Shown here: one piece after another, positions 33,325 to 45,325 of the stretch
Layout: each line of letters opens with the position of its first letter
Position numbering within the stretch: position 1 is the stretch's first letter
Assembly: GCA_029551185.1 (NCBI GenBank)
Contig: JAKPFY010000091.1
Span: 1-45,838 of the forward strand
Length of the DNA stretch: 45,838 nt
From: Bacillota bacterium
Lineage (GTDB): Bacteria; Bacillota; SHA-98; UBA4971
Direction of reading: 5' to 3'
Program-made: the position numbers and the translations under genes
The notes under the pieces: generated by a model
What the model was told of the DNA's origin: nothing
Seen by the model: the letters and a program-made list of their open reading frames with translations, nothing else
The model's database searches: none

Positions 33325-33724
<400 letters not shown>

Positions 33725-35044: not shown

Positions 35045-36340
35045 ATGCCCGAAAGAATAGGCCATATTTGGTTGCCTAATTTTTATTCCTCAGTTGAAAT
35101 AAAAATAAATGAATTTTCCCCCCATGATGCAGTCTTCGCTGTTATAAAAGGACAGAAGGTCTTGGATATATCCCCCACTGCAAGGGGAAAAGGGATAAAA
35201 CCAGGAATGACCCTGCGTCAAGCTCGCCTTGTGTGCCCTGATATCAGCGTAATAGAATACACTCCACAGCGATATACAGGTTTTGCCGAGAAGATCTGGG
35301 AGGCATACGCGACATACAGTTCTGCAGTAGAACCTCTGAATGAAAGAGAGGCTTTTATTGATCTCTCCCACTGTCCCAGCATGTTCGGTGCCTTAGATGA
35401 GATTTCCAAGTATGTAGAAAGCATCATAGGAGTTTCGCCTTTATATGGGATCGCCCGTTGCAAGTTGGTATCCAGGATTATCTCAGGGATTCTTCCCGGG
35501 TCAAGGACAAAGAGCTTCCGGCACCTTACGGAGCGCATGGTTTCTTGTGAGGGGAGACACATAGGCGCAAATATTGTTACAGACAGGGAAAAGGAGTTTT
35601 TGGCGCCTCTGCCTGTAAACATGCTGTGGCCTTTGGATCCGGACATCCTCTCTTACCTTTTAAGGCTTGGGATAGGTTGTATAGGTGAAATTCAACGCAT
35701 GAATCAATCAGTCCTTGTTGATATGTTCGGCCAGGTAGGGTACGTCATTCATCAATACAGCCTGGGTATGGATTATACTAAAGTATTGCCTGTCTTTCCG
35801 CAAAATGGCGTAACATTTTCGAAAACTTTCGATTCTCCGGTTTCCAATGAAAAGATCCTCTTGGCAGTGGCAAATGAAGGCCTGTCTTCTTTGGAGAAAA
35901 AGCTTGACGCAGCCTATATGACGGTAAAGGGGCTTAAAATTGCCTTAGAATGTGACAGCGGAAGCATAATAAGCCGCAAAAAAAATCTTACGAAACAAGT
36001 AAGCATGTATGGGGGGCTGCAGCGGATATGTGAATGTCTTTTAAACGAAACCTTTGAAGGCGGGGATTTAAATGAGCCTGTACGAACGGTCTCAATTACA
36101 GCATACGGTCTTATTCCTGTAAAGACAAGTTTACAGGTGGATATGTTCGCTCCGTACGAGGTTCAGGCTTCAGCTGAGGTCATGGACGAAATTCTTTGCA
36201 AGGTGCGGGAGAGGTTCGGTCCGGGTGCTATTTTCCCTGGGAGAGAGTTGCAATTGGCGAGAAGAGATAAGCTCCTCTTAGTTTCGGAGGGTTATATTCA
36301 TGAAGAGGGTAAAAGAGTCGCTTCATGTTATAGCGGATAG
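35045..36340 (+). CDS. ImuB-like inactive Y-family polymerase homologue
   Basis: The fold is that of Y-family polymerases: palm/finger N-terminus (RIGHIWLPNFYSSVE; GKGIKPGMTLRQARLVCPDI), thumb with helix-hairpin-helix (ILSYLLRLGIGCIGEIQRM), and a little finger (SISKTF-like FSKTFDSPVS onward). The catalytic residues are changed. The Asp-x-Asp at the start of the palm is replaced by W9 and P11, and the Asp of the S-x-Asp-Glu motif is R101 in NEREAFID (E102 is kept). This is the pattern of ImuB, a non-catalytic mutasome scaffold. A clamp-binding-like motif QVDMF lies at 364-368. The ATG has AAGGTGAG upstream. The gene follows a LexA-controlled promoter and leads the operon. Confidence 0.85.
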   Translation: MPERIGHIWLPNFYSSVEIKINEFSPHDAVFAVIKGQKVLDISPTARGKGIKPGMTLRQARLVCPDISVIEYTPQRYTGFAEKIWEAYATYSSAVEPLNEREAFIDLSHCPSMFGALDEISKYVESIIGVSPLYGIARCKLVSRIISGILPGSRTKSFRHLTERMVSCEGRHIGANIVTDREKEFLAPLPVNMLWPLDPDILSYLLRLGIGCIGEIQRMNQSVLVDMFGQVGYVIHQYSLGMDYTKVLPVFPQNGVTFSKTFDSPVSNEKILLAVANEGLSSLEKKLDAAYMTVKGLKIALECDSGSIISRKKNLTKQVSMYGGLQRICECLLNETFEGGDLNEPVRTVSITAYGLIPVKTSLQVDMFAPYEVQASAEVMDEILCKVRERFGPGAIFPGRELQLARRDKLLLVSEGYIHEEGKRVASCYSG

Positions 36341-36542
36341 CAATCAAAATCCTAAGAGATTTTACCGGGGAGGGGATTGGTTTCAGGTGGTATCTGTTAT
36401 AGATGAGTGGCATGAGATGAATAATTGGTGGGACTGTGGCGGAGAGACGCATTTCTATGTGATCTTGGCAGATAACTCCGGGGTATATGAACTCTGTCGC
36501 AATGAAGACGGGACCTGGTATTTGACAGGGGTTTTTGATTAG
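36300..36542 (+). CDS. DUF6504 family small protein
   Basis: This 80-residue protein overlaps the end of the imuB-like gene by 41 bases. The conserved pattern is PKRFYRGGDWFQVVSVIDEWHEMNNWWDCGGETHFYVILADNSGVYELCRNEDGTWYLTGVFD, matching the DUF6504 family, which elsewhere occurs next to or fused with ImuB-type proteins and DnaE2. It is rich in tryptophan and aromatic residues and looks like a small beta-barrel-like domain. Its role is unknown; an accessory part of the mutasome is the simplest inference. GGAGGG lies eight bases before the ATG. The dnaE2 start follows ten bases after its stop. Confidence 0.82.
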   Translation: MKRVKESLHVIADSNQNPKRFYRGGDWFQVVSVIDEWHEMNNWWDCGGETHFYVILADNSGVYELCRNEDGTWYLTGVFD

Positions 36543-36552
36543 AGGGATAACA

Positions 36553-39500
36553 GTGAAAAACTTTGCCCACCTCCATGTGCACTCGTGTTTTTCTTTTCAA
36601 GACGGCGCATCTGGAGTTAAAAAGCTTGTAAGAAGTGCCGGAGAGCTTGGCATGAACTCTATGGCTATTACAGATCATAATAACCTTTCCGCGGCTTTGA
36701 GACTTACAAAAGCCGCGGAAGAGTGCGGGATAAAGCCTATTCACGGAGCAGAGGTGACACTTGAGGACGGAAGTCACCTTATTCTTTTGGCGGAAAACCC
36801 CAAAGGATATTCAAATATTTCCGTGATTCTTACAGAAGCCTACATGTCCGGGGATTGGCAAAATACAGCTCGGGCGCTTGAAGGAAGGGATGCAGCAAGG
36901 ACAATGAATGCATTGAAAAGGCGCAGGATCCTGCCGAAAGTGCGTTTTGCGTCCCTTGAAGAACATAATGAAGGGATCATAGCTTTATCAGGATGCATGC
37001 GCGGAGCGATTCCTATTTTAATCCGCAGCGGAAGATTTGGGTGCGCGCTTCAACTTGCCCGAAAATATGCCGGGATTTTCGGCCAAGATAGATTCTACAT
37101 TGAGCTTGAGAATCTTTGTGTGCCGGGTAACGCCGGGCTCTTGTCGCGCCTTGTTGAGTTGGCGGATGAGGTGGGAGTCGGAGTTTGCGCGACAAATAAT
37201 GTCCACTACGTAAAGAAAGAAGACTTTATGATCCATGATGTCCTAACATGTATAAGGACGCTTACAAAACTTGATGACGTACACCCTGAACGGAGATTGA
37301 ACGCGGAAAATTACTTGAAATCGCCTAAAGAGATGGAGGCTTTATTCCGCCTCTGGCCTGAGGCTATCAGGACCGCTGGGGAGATTGCTGCCAGGTGTGA
37401 GCCCGGACTTTTGCCGGGCCGAAAACTTTTTCCTAAGTTTCCCTTGCCATCCGGCACAACTTCAGCCGAGCATCTAAGGAGCCTGGTATATAAAGGCGCC
37501 GAGGCCCGTTATGGAAGTATTACGCCCGAGATAAAGTCCAGGCTTGAACATGAACTCAATATCATCTGTACACTGGGATATGAAGATTACTTTTTGGTTG
37601 CCTGGGATATCGTGATGTTTGCAAAGAGTGAGGGGATAAGGTTTGCAGGGCGAGGCTCAGCTGCAGATTCAGCAGTAGCGCACTGTCTTTTCATAACCAA
37701 TGTGGATCCTATTGGGCGAGGACTGATTTTTGAGAGGTTTTTAAGTCTTGAACGGGCGCAAAAGCCTGATATTGATATAGATTTTGACGCTCGGAGAAGG
37801 GATGAAGTAAAGCGCTATGTCCGGCATAAATACGGTACTCGGCATGTAGCGACTGTATGTACATTTAATACTTTCAAGGCTCGGTCCGCTGTGCGCGATG
37901 TAGGAAAAGTCATGGGTATCTCCGGAAGTGACTTAGACAGACTCGCAAAGCGTCTGCCTCATGTCTATGCTGATGAAATTAAAACAGCTATAAAGAAATA
38001 TCCTGAGCTTTACAACGGAGATATTTCATTTGATGATTATTCGCGGCTTTTTGAGGTCTGCCATGCCTTGGCAGGCTTACCACGCCACATAGGCACCCAT
38101 TTAGGCGGAATTGTAGTGAGCCGACTTCCTCTTGCGGAAGTGTCTCCTTTGCAGGTATCAGCGAGGGGCGATGTGATTATCCAGTTCGACAAGGATGATG
38201 TAGAGGAAATCGGCCTTATTAAACTGGATCTGTTGTCTTTACGGATGCTTTCCGTTATAGAGGATTCCACAGTTTCGAGCGGGATAGACCCTGATGAAAT
38301 ACCATTGGATGATGATGCCACGTACAAAATGATTAACGAAGGCGGGACAATCGGTGTTTTTCAGTTGGAAAGCCCTGCGCAAAGAGCCCTTCAGGGTCGT
38401 TTAGGCGCAAGTGATATAGAGGATATAGTTGCAAGTATCGCTCTTATACGTCCTGGCCCTATTCAAGGAAACATGGTGGAACCTTTTATTGCAAGGAGAA
38501 AAGGATTGGAAGAAGTTTCTTATGTTCATCCTTCTCTTGAAAAGATTCTTAAGAAAACCTATGGGGTAGTGCTTTATCAGGAGCAGGTAATAGAGATTGC
38601 AAGCGTAATCGCAGGCTTTACCCCGGGGGAAGCCGATCGGCTGAGAAAAGTTATGACCCGACATCGCTCCAGGGAGGAAATGAATGAGATAGGCAAGGAG
38701 TTTGTGAAGAAAGCTGTCAAGAACGGAGTTGCCCAAGATATAGCAGAGACTATTCTATCTTATATAGTAGGTTACGCAGGCTATGGTTTTTGTCAGGCCC
38801 ATGCTGATGCATTTGCTGATACTTCTTATAAGACGGCTTATCTTTTAAGGCATTTTCCTGCCCAATTTTACACAGCTATACTTAATAATCAACCTATGGG
38901 ATTTTATCCTGCTAATACAATATGTCTTGAAGCAAGAAGGCGTGGAGTCAGAATTCTTCCGGTGGACATAAATATGAGCGTATATGAATTTACTGTGGAA
39001 GACGGCGCTATACGTATAGGACTGAAGCAGGTCCGTGGTATGGAGGAAGAGCTTGCCCGGGAGATAATCAGGTCGCGTGGGGGTTCGGGATATGATTCTC
39101 TTTTTGATTTTGTCCGACGTGTCTCTGTACCGCAAGATATTCTTGAAAACTTAATACTCTGTGGGGCATTTGATAGTATCCATAGTAACCGTAAGGCAAT
39201 GTTGTGGGCGGTTCCGGGAGTATTGCAGGGCTCGATGATTCTGCCACTGATAGAAGACTTTTCAGAACGAGAAAAATTTAAGCGAGCATATTACATACTC
39301 GGACTCCATCCCACTACGCATCCTGTGGAATTACAGCGTGTCCAATTGAATAAGGATAATATAGTTACTACATCCTGTGCCAGACAGATGCCGATTGGGA
39401 CATTTGTCAAGGTAGCAGGGCTTGTAATAAGACCACACCGGCCGTCGACGAGAAGTGGCAAGACTGTTGTGTTCTTTTCTCTTGAAGATGAAACAGGGCT

Positions 39501-39654
39501 CATTGATGTTACCGTATTTGAGAGTATATATAAACAATGTAAAGGTGTAATATTCACTCAGCCTATGGTGACAGTTGAAGGGCGTGTGGATCTCAGGGGC
39601 AACATCCCGAGTATAATAGCAGGCTCTATACATGGGAATGTCCCGGATTCTTAA
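36553..39654 (+). CDS. Error-prone DNA polymerase DnaE2/ImuC-like
   Basis: This C-family polymerase of about 1033 residues has an N-terminal PHP domain (FAHLHVHSCFSFQDG; MAITDHNN), then the catalytic palm with PDIDIDFD at about 405-412 and a third site in IKLDLLSLRML. The fingers region includes YQEQVIEIASVIAGFTPGEADRLRKVM and GYGFCQAHADAFADTSYKTAYL. A helix-hairpin-helix region and an OB fold (FVKVAGLVIRPHRPSTRSGKTVVFFSLEDETGLIDVTVF, about 948-986) follow, and the protein ends there, without the long C-terminal clamp/tau region of replicative DnaE. That is the DnaE2/ImuC pattern. Frame opens at a TTG at 36535; GAGGGA fits the GTG at 36553. Confidence 0.9.
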   Translation: MKNFAHLHVHSCFSFQDGASGVKKLVRSAGELGMNSMAITDHNNLSAALRLTKAAEECGIKPIHGAEVTLEDGSHLILLAENPKGYSNISVILTEAYMSGDWQNTARALEGRDAARTMNALKRRRILPKVRFASLEEHNEGIIALSGCMRGAIPILIRSGRFGCALQLARKYAGIFGQDRFYIELENLCVPGNAGLLSRLVELADEVGVGVCATNNVHYVKKEDFMIHDVLTCIRTLTKLDDVHPERRLNAENYLKSPKEMEALFRLWPEAIRTAGEIAARCEPGLLPGRKLFPKFPLPSGTTSAEHLRSLVYKGAEARYGSITPEIKSRLEHELNIICTLGYEDYFLVAWDIVMFAKSEGIRFAGRGSAADSAVAHCLFITNVDPIGRGLIFERFLSLERAQKPDIDIDFDARRRDEVKRYVRHKYGTRHVATVCTFNTFKARSAVRDVGKVMGISGSDLDRLAKRLPHVYADEIKTAIKKYPELYNGDISFDDYSRLFEVCHALAGLPRHIGTHLGGIVVSRLPLAEVSPLQVSARGDVIIQFDKDDVEEIGLIKLDLLSLRMLSVIEDSTVSSGIDPDEIPLDDDATYKMINEGGTIGVFQLESPAQRALQGRLGASDIEDIVASIALIRPGPIQGNMVEPFIARRKGLEEVSYVHPSLEKILKKTYGVVLYQEQVIEIASVIAGFTPGEADRLRKVMTRHRSREEMNEIGKEFVKKAVKNGVAQDIAETILSYIVGYAGYGFCQAHADAFADTSYKTAYLLRHFPAQFYTAILNNQPMGFYPANTICLEARRRGVRILPVDINMSVYEFTVEDGAIRIGLKQVRGMEEELAREIIRSRGGSGYDSLFDFVRRVSVPQDILENLILCGAFDSIHSNRKAMLWAVPGVLQGSMILPLIEDFSEREKFKRAYYILGLHPTTHPVELQRVQLNKDNIVTTSCARQMPIGTFVKVAGLVIRPHRPSTRSGKTVVFFSLEDETGLIDVTVFESIYKQCKGVIFTQPMVTVEGRVDLRGNIPSIIAGSIHGNVPDS

Positions 39655-40017: not shown

Positions 40018-41706
40018 GTGAAGTTAAGAAGATTCCTTTTGCCTGTTGCCATTTGCCTGATTCTGGCTATGACATGCGGGATCGTCACTGCCCAGCAGAA
40101 GGTTAAGTGGGAGCCGTACGGGCCACAGGTTGACCAAATTATTATGCCGATCATTAAAGACAGCGAAGCGCAGCTTATCGCGTTTATGCGTGGTGACGTC
40201 GATGTATATCCCGGTTTGACAAGGCCTGAAGACCTCAATAAGGTAAAGGCTAATCCAAATGCGGAGATCACGATGAACTATGGTTTCCATATGTTCTATC
40301 TATGCTACAATATGAGGCGTGAGCCTCTTAATTCAGATGTTCTCCGACAGGCTATCGCACATGTTATAGACCGTGACAATATCATTCAGACCCTCTTCGA
40401 GGGCTATATGTTGCCGCTGGCTGCATTCTTGCCTCCGTCCAGTGGATACTATAAGGAAGATGTGCCGCGCTTCGAGTATAACCCGGAAGAGGCAAAGAAG
40501 CTTTTGGATAAAGCAGGTTACACAGTGGATCCTGCCACCGGAATCAGAATTGATCCGAAGACAGGAAAGCCACTTCGGAAGATGACTATCTATACGCCTA
40601 CATACGAAGTTGCTCCGACTTCAGCTGAGCTCGGCAAGATCATATCTGAAGCATGCCAGGCAATAAACCTGCCCATCGAGCCGGAGCCAATGGACTTCCC
40701 GGTTATGCTGGATAAGCTTGACAGGGCAGAGTTCGATATGTACATGCTGGCGTGGGGCCTAAGCCGTCTGCCTACTTCACTGTACAGCTTCTTCCACTCA
40801 TCTCAGGATATTGAAGCCGGGTACAACAGGCCTGGTATCCGCGATCCTGAACTGGACAAACTGCTGGAGGAACTCTATTATGCACCCAATGAAGAAGCTG
40901 CTAAGAAGGCGGCTGACGAGGCGCAGGTCATTCTTGCCATGAAGCAGCCATATACAGTGCTATACTCCAGACCTTACATGGACGCATTCCGCAAGGATAG
41001 GTTCACAGGTTATGTGCCGATGCACGGTTATGGCGCAGCGAACTATCAAAACAAATGGACGACTCTTAACATTCGACCGACCAAGGGTAAAGGCGGCACG
41101 GTCCGTTGGCTGCTTCCGGAAGAGCCGAAAGTCCTTAACCCATGTACTGCAAGCAGCGCCTATGAGTGGGAAGTTCTCGGAAGACTCTACGACGGGTTGA
41201 TAGAAGTCGATCCTGAGACCATGGAAGACATTCCGTGGATGGCCAAGAGCTGGGAAGTCAGCACTTGGGAGCCTGAACCCGGAAAGAAGGGCACTGTTGT
41301 CACATGGAATCTGGAGAAAGGCATCAAGTGGCAAGACACTACTCCTTTCACATCCAGAGATATCAAGTTCACCATCGAGTACCTGCGTGATAACAAGGTT
41401 CCGAGATATATTGACAGCGTCGAACATATCGTTAAGGTTGAAACCCCTGACGACTATACTGCCAAGGTCTACTTTGCGAATGAGAGCTACTGGCATCTCT
41501 ACAGAGCCGGTGAATGCTTCCTGCCTGAGTGGATCTGGAAGGACGTAAAAGACTACAAGACCTTTGAGCCATGGCTGGAGCCTCACCCATCAGTGAAAGG
41601 CCTTACCAAGGTTATCGGGCACGGCCCGTTTATCCTGGATCAGTACAAAGTGGGCGAGTATGTCCGACTGAAGAAGAACCCAATTTACTGGAGGCTGAAG
41701 AAGTAA
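40018..41706 (+). CDS. ABC transporter solute-binding protein, circularly permuted (SBP_bac_5 type)
   Basis: This is a peptide/nickel-type extracytoplasmic solute-binding protein of 562 residues with an N-terminal secretion signal (about 1-26, LLPVAICLILAMTCGIVTA; no good lipobox). The order of parts is unusual. Residues about 38-353 carry what is normally the C-terminal half: VDQIIMPIIKDSEAQLIAFMRGDVDVY, NMRREPLNSDVLRQAIAHVIDRDNII, EAKKLLDKAGY, and the family end TTLNIRP. From residue 359 the protein restarts with the usual mature N-terminus, GGTVRWLLPEEPKVLNPCTAS, continuing through FTIEYLRDNKVPRY to EYVRLKKNPIYWR, which normally runs into the VDQI segment. The GTG start has GGGAGG upstream. 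Permeases and ATPases follow. Confidence 0.88.
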   Translation: MKLRRFLLPVAICLILAMTCGIVTAQQKVKWEPYGPQVDQIIMPIIKDSEAQLIAFMRGDVDVYPGLTRPEDLNKVKANPNAEITMNYGFHMFYLCYNMRREPLNSDVLRQAIAHVIDRDNIIQTLFEGYMLPLAAFLPPSSGYYKEDVPRFEYNPEEAKKLLDKAGYTVDPATGIRIDPKTGKPLRKMTIYTPTYEVAPTSAELGKIISEACQAINLPIEPEPMDFPVMLDKLDRAEFDMYMLAWGLSRLPTSLYSFFHSSQDIEAGYNRPGIRDPELDKLLEELYYAPNEEAAKKAADEAQVILAMKQPYTVLYSRPYMDAFRKDRFTGYVPMHGYGAANYQNKWTTLNIRPTKGKGGTVRWLLPEEPKVLNPCTASSAYEWEVLGRLYDGLIEVDPETMEDIPWMAKSWEVSTWEPEPGKKGTVVTWNLEKGIKWQDTTPFTSRDIKFTIEYLRDNKVPRYIDSVEHIVKVETPDDYTAKVYFANESYWHLYRAGECFLPEWIWKDVKDYKTFEPWLEPHPSVKGLTKVIGHGPFILDQYKVGEYVRLKKNPIYWRLKK

Positions 41707-41760: not shown

Positions 41761-41790
41761 TCCGCCGCCCCGGGCATCCGGGGCGGCGGA
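41761..41790 (+). other. GC-rich hairpin after the solute-binding protein gene
   Basis: A 13-bp perfect stem (TCCGCCGCCCCGG and its complement) with a GCAT loop lies 55 bases after the stop. No U-tract follows. Such hairpins often protect the message of a highly expressed binding protein. Confidence 0.8.
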
Positions 41791-41853: not shown

Positions 41854-42837
41854 TTGGGCTTTTCAAGGTATCTATTGAAAAGACTGGTCTACGCATTTAT
41901 CGTGGTATTTGTTATCATGACATTCAACTTCGCGATATTTCGGCTTATGCCCGGAGACGCTACGAAGATGATAATAGACCCTACGTTTACTCCGGAAGCC
42001 ATCGCTGAACTCAGAAGGCAGTTCGGCCTGGACGATCCCCCGCTTGTACAATACTTTAAGTATATTGGCAATCTATTTAAGTTCGATATGGGACTTTCTT
42101 TCTCTACGAGGAGGCCTGTGGTGAACGAACTGAAGGAACGGCTTCCCAATACCATAGTGCTTTTCTTGACGAGCTTTATTTTTACGACTATTATCGGTAT
42201 TTCTGTAGGGATCTATACTGCGTCGAAAAGAGGGACTTTCGGCGACAACTTCGTAACAGGAGCCGGCCTCTTTGCTTATGCAGTGCCGGCGTTTTGGATA
42301 CAATTGCTGTTGCTGATGTTATTCGGCTACTACATACCGATTTTGCCGATACACGGTACTATGAGTGCGCCTCCACCTGATGGATTCTTTCTGCAATTTC
42401 TGGATAGGATTCATCATTTGATATTGCCTGCAGGGAGCAATGTGCTCGTAGCTTTCGGATCATGGGCGCTTTATACACGTAATACAATGCTTGAAGCCCT
42501 TGGCCAGGATTACATCGTTACCGCCAGGGCAAAGGGTCTTGAGGAAAATGTTGTTTTGCGCCATCATGCTTTAAGAAGTGTCCTGCCCCCTATTGTTACA
42601 CTGATATTCGGGGCTCTCCCCGGAATGGTATCAGGCGCTGTTATTACAGAGACCATCTTTTCTTGGCACGGTGTGGGCAAGTATCTGATGGACGCAGTTA
42701 TGATGCAGGATTACCCTGCTGCGCAAGGAGCGTTTTACCTTATCGCTTTGGCAGTTGTGATTTGTAATCTTGCAGCCGACATTGTGTACGGAATCGTAGA
42801 TCCCAGAATCCGAGTGGGGGAGGGTGGAGCGAAGTGA
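41854..42837 (+). CDS. Peptide/nickel-type ABC transporter permease, DppB/OppB-like
   Basis: This is the first membrane subunit of the transporter (327 residues). The N-terminus RYLLKRLVYAFIVVFVIMTFNFAIFRLMPGD is the family hallmark. Six hydrophobic segments follow the usual spacing. The coupling (EAA) loop is EALGQDYIVTARAKGLEENVVLRHHALRSVLPPIVTL, and TETIFSWHGVGKYLMDAV is typical. The TTG start has GAGGTGAG upstream. Its end overlaps the next permease gene by four bases (GTGA). Confidence 0.95.
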   Translation: MGFSRYLLKRLVYAFIVVFVIMTFNFAIFRLMPGDATKMIIDPTFTPEAIAELRRQFGLDDPPLVQYFKYIGNLFKFDMGLSFSTRRPVVNELKERLPNTIVLFLTSFIFTTIIGISVGIYTASKRGTFGDNFVTGAGLFAYAVPAFWIQLLLLMLFGYYIPILPIHGTMSAPPPDGFFLQFLDRIHHLILPAGSNVLVAFGSWALYTRNTMLEALGQDYIVTARAKGLEENVVLRHHALRSVLPPIVTLIFGALPGMVSGAVITETIFSWHGVGKYLMDAVMMQDYPAAQGAFYLIALAVVICNLAADIVYGIVDPRIRVGEGGAK

Positions 42838-44330
42838 GCCAGAATAAAACGAAAACTGACATGAGTGCGCCGACCTTTTGGGAGCAATACAGGCGTAAGC
42901 CTTTGGGCATGATTGGTCTGGCCATAGTGCTGGTCTATGTTTTTGTCGCAATCTTTGCTCCTTTTCTGACCCGCTATAGCCCTAAGCAAATACTTTTGGC
43001 TGACAGGATAGCTGCTCCTATATGGTTTAGATCCGTTGTGCCTCAGTATAAAGATGCGCCTCCGACTATCAGGGCAGAGCTTGGCCCTAGTAAGTGGGTT
43101 GTGAGTGAGGCGACAGGGGGAAGACTTACTTCAGATGAGATTGACGGCAATGCTGTCACTGTTATTGAATTTGAACCTGTCCCAATAACGATGACAGATG
43201 AGAGTATCTCCGAAGGTGAAGATGACGAATTTCAATACGGAGACTATGAAGGAGAGCCGAGTAAGAGTGTTGTTGAGCTTTCATATCCAATAGCATACGA
43301 TTTTAATCCTCCGAGAACTTTCGGATCAACCTTTAATTATTGGATAGATGGATCTCCCGACTCCAAGACTGAACTGGAGTGTGTGATAGAAACGCCCGAG
43401 GGGAAAGAGTATAGTCTATGGGGAAAGTCATACTCCGGCGCTGTCAGTAATCAGCCTGCCAGGGTTGACTCGAGAGATTTAACCCTCAAGCAGAGGCTGG
43501 GCCTTACAATTTTTGACGACCCTGCCCCAAAAATCTTCTCATCAAAGGGAGACTATAGGCTTATACTGCGAGCAAACTCCACCTCAGGAGACGAGCCGAC
43601 GCGCGTGTACATCAGTAATGCGGAGTTCTATATCCCCGGAATGGTACACGGCCTGCTGGGCGCAGATCATATGGGCTCAGACCTATGGACTCAGCTTGTG
43701 TACGGCACAAGGGTATCGCTTTCTATTGGACTTTCCGCAGCCGCTATTTCAGTTGCTGTAGGCACTGCTGTCGGAATAATATGCGGCTATCTGGGCGGAA
43801 TTGTTGATGAGTTTATGATGAGGGTTGTTGACGTCCTTTTGGCCATTCCTACTCTTCCAATTCTTATTATCCTCGGGGCGATACTGGGAAAGAGTGTTTG
43901 GAATATTGTTCTTTTGATTGCGGCTTTTGCTTGGATGGGTACAGCGAGATTAGTTCGCTCACAGACTCTGTCACTCCGGGAGCGCGTATTTGTGGAAGCT
44001 GCCAAGGCATCAGGCGCCTCCGACGCTTACGTAATGGTTGTTCATATACTTCCTAACGTACTGCCTCTTGTATTTGCCGGCATGGTACTGCGTATCCCGT
44101 CAGCAATATTAACAGAGGCCTCCCTTAGTTTCCTGGGGCTTGGTGATCCAAGGGTTGCCACTTGGGGACGTATGTTACATAACGCGAGGGGATTTGGCGC
44201 ATTTACCACACTTGCATGGTGGTGGCTTGTGCCGCCGGGGCTGGCTATTACACTCTTGAGCCTTGCCTTTGTGTTCATTGGCAATACAGTCAATGAAATC
44301 CTCAATCCAAGGTATAGGGAGAGATCATAA
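42834..44330 (+). CDS. Peptide/nickel-type ABC transporter permease, DppC/OppC-like, with large extracytoplasmic insert
   Basis: This is the second membrane subunit. It has 498 residues, against about 300 in typical DppC. The N-terminus has the OppC-type cytoplasmic stretch and first membrane segment (YRRKPLGMIGLAIVLVYVFVAIFAPFLTRYSP). Between residue 50 and about 270 lies an added soluble region, predicted outside the membrane, with beta-rich sequence (TFGSTFNYWIDGSPDSKTELECVIETPEGKEYSLWG; GDYRLILRANSTSGDEPTRVYIS). The standard part resumes with HGLLGADHMGSDLWTQLVYGTRVSLSIG near 271, and the EAA loop FVEAAKASGASDAYVMVVHILPNVLPLV follows. The insert may contact the solute-binding protein; that is inference. 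Confidence 0.93.
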   Translation: MSQNKTKTDMSAPTFWEQYRRKPLGMIGLAIVLVYVFVAIFAPFLTRYSPKQILLADRIAAPIWFRSVVPQYKDAPPTIRAELGPSKWVVSEATGGRLTSDEIDGNAVTVIEFEPVPITMTDESISEGEDDEFQYGDYEGEPSKSVVELSYPIAYDFNPPRTFGSTFNYWIDGSPDSKTELECVIETPEGKEYSLWGKSYSGAVSNQPARVDSRDLTLKQRLGLTIFDDPAPKIFSSKGDYRLILRANSTSGDEPTRVYISNAEFYIPGMVHGLLGADHMGSDLWTQLVYGTRVSLSIGLSAAAISVAVGTAVGIICGYLGGIVDEFMMRVVDVLLAIPTLPILIILGAILGKSVWNIVLLIAAFAWMGTARLVRSQTLSLRERVFVEAAKASGASDAYVMVVHILPNVLPLVFAGMVLRIPSAILTEASLSFLGLGDPRVATWGRMLHNARGFGAFTTLAWWWLVPPGLAITLLSLAFVFIGNTVNEILNPRYRERS

Positions 44331-44332
44331 TC

Positions 44333-45325
44333 ATGGCTCTACTGGAAGTAAGAGACCTCAAGATGTATTATAAAACCCTTCGCGGTTATGTGAAGGCAGT
44401 TGACTCTGTGAGCTTTGATATTGAAAAAGGGAAAGCCTTGGGCATAGCAGGCGAGTCCGGATGCGGGAAAACAAGCATGGCTGTTACGATTCTTAGGCTC
44501 CTTCCCAGTAATGGCAAGATCCACGGAGGATCAGTTAAGCTGGACGGCGTTGACATCGTGAAGTTGGATGACGAAGAGTTCAGAAAGTCTATTCGATGGA
44601 AGAAGATATCTATGGTATTCCAAGGTGCGATGAACGCCCTTAACCCCGTGCATCGAGTGGGAGACCAAATAGTGGAAGCAATATTGGCTCATGAAGACGT
44701 GTCACATGCTGAGGCAGTCAAGCGGGCTGAAGATCTCCTTGATATGGTAGGTATCAACCCAAAGAGATTCAGAGAGTATCCCCATGAATTCAGCGGGGGT
44801 ATGAAACAAAGGGTTGTCATAGCTATGGCCCTTGCTTGCAATCCTGATCTTATCATTGCTGATGAGCCAACCACTGCGCTTGATGTTATGGTCCAATCAC
44901 AGGTTTTGAAAGCTATGGAAGATTTAAGGAAGAGGCTGGATCTTTCTATGATGCTTATCACCCATGACTTATCGGTAATTGCCCAGACATGTGATGATAT
45001 TGCTATCATGTACGCCGGAAAGATTGTGGAATACGGCAATGTCATAGATATATATGACCATCCGATGCATCCGTATGGTATGGGGCTTGTAAACTCTTTC
45101 CCAAATATCAAAGCTGAGAGAACTCGGGTACGGTCCTTGCCGGGATTCCCACCTAACTTGTTGGCGCCCCCCGAAGGCTGTAGATTCCATCCCAGATGCC
45201 CACTGGCAGACGACATCTGTATGGAAGAAGAACCGAAGCTTATTGAGATTGGTTCAAACAGCCATAAGGTTGCCTGCCACAAGGTAGATATGCTTGAGAG
45301 GGGGGTCGACATATGGGCGCAGTAA
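44333..45325 (+). CDS. Peptide/nickel-type ABC transporter ATPase, DppD/OppD-like
   Basis: This is a cytoplasmic nucleotide-binding subunit of 330 residues. Walker A GESGCGKT is at about 40-47, signature FSGGMKQRVVIAMALA, Walker B LIIADEPTTALD and the H-loop ITHDLS. The C-terminal oligopeptide-transporter tail (LPGFPPNLLAPPEGCRFHPRCPLADDIC) contains the cysteines seen in DppD-type ATPases, some of which bind an iron-sulfur cluster. It follows the permease by two bases and overlaps the next ATPase gene. Confidence 0.97.
   Translation: MALLEVRDLKMYYKTLRGYVKAVDSVSFDIEKGKALGIAGESGCGKTSMAVTILRLLPSNGKIHGGSVKLDGVDIVKLDDEEFRKSIRWKKISMVFQGAMNALNPVHRVGDQIVEAILAHEDVSHAEAVKRAEDLLDMVGINPKRFREYPHEFSGGMKQRVVIAMALACNPDLIIADEPTTALDVMVQSQVLKAMEDLRKRLDLSMMLITHDLSVIAQTCDDIAIMYAGKIVEYGNVIDIYDHPMHPYGMGLVNSFPNIKAERTRVRSLPGFPPNLLAPPEGCRFHPRCPLADDICMEEEPKLIEIGSNSHKVACHKVDMLERGVDIWAQ

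Follow-up and report, generated by a model that had tools for sequence, protein, structure and literature searches.

The window (the whole stretch of 45,838 nucleotides which was analysed) encodes what is, in our estimate with a probability of about 0.92, a working periplasmic solute-binding protein (SBP) of cluster C, with a chain that was circularly permuted once in an ancestor of the lineage. Its gene is a single open frame in the plus strand, from the GTG at 40018 to the TAA ending at 41706, which codes for 562 amino acids. The signal peptide is followed by the old C-terminal 60% of the chain, a linker of seven residues and the old N-terminal 40%. A functional permuted SBP_bac_5 protein had been proposed in the first-pass annotation; segment order, conservation, selection, the operon and a confident fold model all point in the same direction.

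The canonical order of segments in SBP_bac_5 is not found in this protein, whereas 37 normal proteins submitted to the same test show the usual order. The Pfam profile SBP_bac_5 (PF00496) matches it with 221 bits (cut-off 32.4), in two pieces which jointly cover the whole profile. The pieces are swapped: profile positions 144–365 fall on amino acids 34–263 and positions 3–151 on the C-terminal part. Solved structures searched with phmmer agree with this: residues 212–489 of AppA (1xoc) match amino acids 36–319 and residues 83–208 match amino acids 429–558, and DppA and other proteins behave in the same way. The swapped order is also apparent with a custom profile. At the cut-off of NCBIfam no equivalog was found for this SBP. 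Residues were mapped by aligning the protein in rotated order with YejA, DppA, OppA and NikA of Escherichia coli. In this alignment the old C-terminus, E507 of mature DppA, corresponds to R353, and the old N-terminus, T2 of DppA, to T361. The old C-terminal part comprises the end of lobe 1, the entire lobe 2 and the return into lobe 1. The linker differs among relatives, with 5–13 residues; dN is raised there, over few sites. The swapped order which had been noted from the sequence is thus borne out by Pfam, phmmer and full-length orthologs with the same order; the intact frame with a secretion signal and the short linker between the old termini were also correctly described, as it can be seen in Table 1.

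Table 1. Features of the permuted SBP gene and of the transport operon in the window
Feature	Position	Strand	Basis or remark
Signal peptide, aa 1–25, MKLRRFLLPVAICLILAMTCGIVTA	40018..40092	+	lacks a lipobox; SPase I type as judged by eye
New N-terminal segment, aa 26–34 (QQKVKWEPY), up to the breakpoint	40093..40119	+	
Old C-terminal part, aa 35–353 (DppA mature about 208–507)	40120..41076	+	rotated alignment, Pfam, phmmer
Linker PTKGKGG, aa 354–360, old C-terminus to old N-terminus	41077..41097	+	rotated alignment
Old N-terminal part, aa 361–562 (DppA mature 2–207), last residues NPIYWR	41098..41703	+	rotated alignment, Pfam, phmmer
RNA hairpin, 13 bp, strong, between SBP stop codon and first permease	41761..41790	+	
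DppB/OppB-type permease	41854..42837	+	BPD_transp_1 and BPD_transp_1_N
DppC/OppC-type permease, 498 aa	42834..44330	+	OppC_N aa 15–58, BPD_transp_1 aa 310–495
Insert of DppC/OppC-type permease, about 214 aa (aa 61–275), between TM1 and TM2	43014..43658	+	
DppD/OppD-type ATPase	44333..45325	+	ABC_tran and oligo_HPY
DppF/OppF-type ATPase, cut by contig end	45313..45838	+	frame translation

The position of the cut is different from the one first suggested, which was the crossing between the two lobes. In the rotated alignment it maps to residues 207–209 of mature DppA, 213–216 of OppA and 216–219 of YejA, inside lobe 1 in the three proteins, and a break at the crossing is ruled out. The lobe hinge of YejA is formed by residues 282–287 and 540–542 (PMC10924461). 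Their equivalents in the window protein are amino acids 86–91 and about 320, so that the cut falls within a loop of lobe 1, 50–65 residues ahead of the lobe crossing, and it adds no crossing. In oligopeptide-binding proteins the N- and C-termini are close together at the sheet of domain I (PMC10924461); since they are adjacent, a linker of 5–13 residues can seal them. The chain would begin, with its signal peptide, at the surface of lobe 1, in a loop flanked by the strand which ends in NPIYWR and the strand VDQIIMPII, while the linker would join the old termini, neighbours in domain I. Lobes, cleft and hinge would be retained, allowing solute capture by lobe closure, and the captured solute would be handed to the DppBCDF-type importer encoded downstream. 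Ligand binding and transport by the permuted SBP are what we infer from these features.

A search for other proteins in the same order had been recommended, and it reveals a conserved family. Among 101 relatives the full-length permuted order is found with identities of 81–89% within the genus, 71% within the family and 53–63% for further families of the phylum. Scanning of genome contigs gave 35 loci with over 25 full-length copies, mostly in Bacillota MAGs from many projects, one of them titled Limnochordales. We call the order of the window protein type A. With a junction profile it is detected in 27 of the 399 sampled Bacillota genomes, which belong to ten families, with identities of about 50–90%; this count is a lower bound, as scoring was limited to the best four candidates of each genome. 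Comparison with four relatives with unsaturated dS gives dN/dS values of 0.075–0.11 overall, low and similar in both parts, which shows strong purifying selection on the permuted protein. The closest normal-order relatives are remote, with about 33% identity in the C-half only.

The same genome has a second permuted SBP_bac_5 protein, with 526 amino acids (C260:1509-3089, locus L131), followed by a permease gene. Its cut follows the 'KAGY' helix of lobe 2, in a position equivalent to amino acids 168–188, approximately, of the window protein. We call this order type B. Sorting of proteins by their order gave 42 of type A, 44 of type B and 37 normal, with no ambiguous cases. Matches which span the junction place type B in 30 of the 399 Bacillota genomes; there are single-contig examples (G023, G069, G201, G352 and G376). 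It is also present in finished plasmids of Nitratireductor, Microvirga, Neorhizobium, Ketogulonicigenium, Roseomonas, Maritalea, Halalkalicoccus and Haladaptatus, in which the order was checked; type B therefore spans Bacillota, Alphaproteobacteria and Haloarchaea. Those plasmid proteins which are annotated are named only 'ABC transporter substrate-binding protein'.

Beside the SBP gene we find the gene set of an Opp/Dpp-type importer (PepT), namely a pair of permeases and a pair of ATPases which carry oligo_HPY. The transport operon had been described as complete: its four transporter parts are confirmed by Pfam, but the second ATPase is cut by the contig end and is intact in a relative (L027, 13300-14334). 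The operon SBP-B-C-D-F is repeated in relatives wherever the contig is long enough, with the exception of a divergent paralog in L051. This type A paralog (L051:7965-10116) is found behind a truncated SBP fragment and has no permeases nearby. Five relatives were tested for the hairpin and all have a similar one in the same place. Highly expressed SBP genes, with the SBP made in excess, usually have such a hairpin between themselves and the permease genes.

A peculiarity of the operon is the insert in the OppC-type permease. A homologous insert of 160–254 amino acids is found between TM1 and TM2 in all type A operons with enough sequence, and the topology of OppC would place it outside the membrane. 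It has no match in Pfam and its PDB match is insignificant (E 0.053). In the loci examined a profile of the insert finds no other open reading frame, and the permeases of neighbouring normal-order operons and of the type B operons examined do not have it. We hypothesize that the insert has co-evolved with the permuted SBP. A more speculative proposal has two parts: the permuted SBP and the insert-bearing permease would form a distinct subclass of importers, in which lobe 1 with its new end is the docking site of the insert, and permutation would have occurred several times in cluster C SBPs of Bacteria and Archaea, at two loops which are preferred. Taken together we consider them possible, on the doubtful side. 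In a Nitratireductor plasmid (L133:6544-8277) a type B operon likewise encodes a C permease with TM1 and TM2 separated by a long insert; this one is repeat-like and unrelated in sequence to that of the window.

Directly upstream of the operon (35045-39654) there is a Y-family-polymerase-like gene, ImuB-like by its appearance, and then a DnaE-type polymerase; this neighbourhood recurs in the genus and the family. The window also contains a class A RNase P RNA (33329-33724). Elsewhere in the same genome, which is 81% complete, there is an Omp85/BamA-type protein (G000:C118:8998-9891), in a Bacillota genome, and LptD has no match. The lipobox pattern is absent from all 42 type A proteins. A soluble periplasmic SBP with no lipid anchor makes sense because the genome encodes Omp85: the cell would be diderm, probably one which lacks classical LPS export.

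The fold was modelled with AlphaFold2. An alignment of 68 rows (42 type A proteins, 8 type B segments and 18 C-parts of normal-order proteins) gave a pLDDT of 94.6 and a pTM of 0.90, with all five models at 93.5 or above and low pLDDT confined to the first residues of the mature model. A first model with 11 close sequences was poor, with a pLDDT of 67.8. With the 68-row model the PDB matches listed by Foldseek are all cluster C SBPs, over 294–349 of 537 columns, with TM at most 0.51 and rmsd 2.4–4.6; no solved chain was aligned over its full length. This partial coverage fits a permutation, since a sequential aligner covers one of the two permuted pieces. The comparison with DppA/OppA-type folds advised in the first-pass annotation has therefore given a confident model that matches cluster C SBPs, and it predicts that the two-lobed fold of this cluster is kept.

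The mode of ligand binding is probably not that of DppA. The anchors for dipeptides in mature DppA, R355 and D408, are replaced by Y196 and L248, and every type A protein compared has a hydrophobic residue in place of D408. To judge from these residues, binding of free dipeptides with a DppA-like grip is unlikely. The loss of the anchors might also indicate that the protein has left transport for another role, as a sensor, decoy or enzyme; SBP folds are reused in other systems. We find this very unlikely: two permeases and two ATPases come next in the relatives, and the hairpin between the SBP and permease genes is present.

In a tree of the re-rotated sequences type A forms one clade with support 100, while type B appears in three places. 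A single clade of type B, and thus one origin for all of it, is rejected (AU p 1.7e-8), in a tree with long branches. If normal order was never regained, the data require a single origin of type A and two or more of type B. One group, the inner order of which is not resolved, comprises type A, the main type B clade and the SBP with normal order from the paralogous operon. In three relatives (L033, L034 and L035) there are tandem pairs of type A genes, 78–84% identical, before one transporter. The most likely route would start with a tandem duplication of the SBP gene, and it is made plausible by such tandem copies. The two copies would be fused in frame, the N-part of the first would be deleted behind its signal peptide and a stop would arise at the breakpoint of the second. 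A tandem duplication followed by loss of the outer halves had already been suggested; the duplication is plausible, but in the first copy the deletion must be internal because the signal peptide was kept. Among the relatives examined we did not find an ancestral unpermuted ortholog.

Other explanations of the permuted order have to be weighed against a single permutation. The source genome is fragmented, with 318 contigs, and MAGs make up the majority of the type A genomes found, as might be expected of an assembly or annotation artefact. Misassembly is ruled out by the identical full-length order in over 25 separate assemblies, at about 50–90% identity; for the same reason the order is not due to chance. 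The variable linker, the strong purifying selection, and the type B permutations in single-contig genomes and finished plasmids also speak against an artefact, the probability of which is practically nil. A tree with no outgroup root might be read with the permuted order as ancestral and the usual one as derived. Such a reading is hardly credible, since a broad sample of the family has predominantly the normal order, and the type A proteins form a single nested clade.

A chimera deserves more attention: the C-part of one SBP paralog could have been fused to the N-part of another, with no permutation of a single gene. The trees of the two parts differ indeed in their nearest neighbour: the C-part stands next to the SBP with normal order from the paralogous operon (L018/L020/L003), the N-part next to type B proteins. 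In several relatives a normal-order SBP operon is found just upstream. The deep branches of these trees are mostly weak, and the N-part of the normal-order neighbour has diverged extremely (branch about 1.5), so that the disagreement between the trees may be noise. Both parts must also pack as one fold, as the model predicts. We consider a chimera unlikely, and a single-gene permutation remains the preferred reading.

From a natural permutant that is conserved one can learn which breaks of the chain the fold and its docking to the importer tolerate. Natural permutants are also ready-made scaffolds for biosensors, in which permuted SBPs have been built by hand. With at least three origins (one for type A, at least two for type B) at two loops in one family, the origin of circular permutants becomes directly testable. 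Annotation and structure searches which depend on order cover only part of the permuted SBPs.

Structural work on cluster C SBPs goes back to the 1990s. In the open-access literature we found no description of permuted cluster C or oligopeptide-binding proteins, in agreement with the earlier remark that no case was described in this family; the one natural permuted SBP found there, TpMglB-2, belongs to another cluster (PMC4990184). One paper was checked for a domain dislocation in OpuA-type betaine-binding domains and did not confirm it.

The window protein shares all family segments with AppA (1xoc), DppA (1dpp), OppA, NikA and YejA; its fold is predicted with high confidence and its operon is of the Dpp/Opp type. 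It differs from these normal cluster C SBPs by a segment order rotated by about 207 residues and by the missing anchors of DppA. Over the C-part its closest normal-order protein, with 32–34% identity, is the SBP of the paralogous operon (C216 of the same genome, L003; relatives L018, L020 and L022), an operon which in some relatives adjoins the permuted one directly upstream. That SBP has a normal order, a very divergent N-part and a permease with no insert. Type B proteins (C260:1509-3089; L021, L023, L110, L119, L133-L142) have the same kind of junction between old C- and N-termini, an intact frame and ABC transporter operons, but their cut is in lobe 2, their origin or origins are separate and they extend to Alphaproteobacteria and Haloarchaea. 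TpMglB-2 (Tp0684) of Treponema pallidum is a natural permuted SBP, classified as 'Type Ic / Cluster Bc' (PMC4990184). Like the window protein it is natural, secreted and circularly permuted, it has an intact two-lobe fold, which in the window protein is predicted by the model, and it is found in a set of related bacteria (PMC4990184). It is a lipoprotein with the sugar-binding fold of cluster B, and its cut adds a fourth lobe crossing (PMC4990184). By sequence, fold model and cut mapping, the window protein has neither the cluster B (type I) fold nor the cut position of Tp0684: it belongs to cluster C, lacks a lipobox and is cut inside lobe 1 with no added crossing. As far as the open-access literature goes, natural permutation is new in cluster C SBPs, whereas a permuted SBP as such was already known from TpMglB-2 (PMC4990184).
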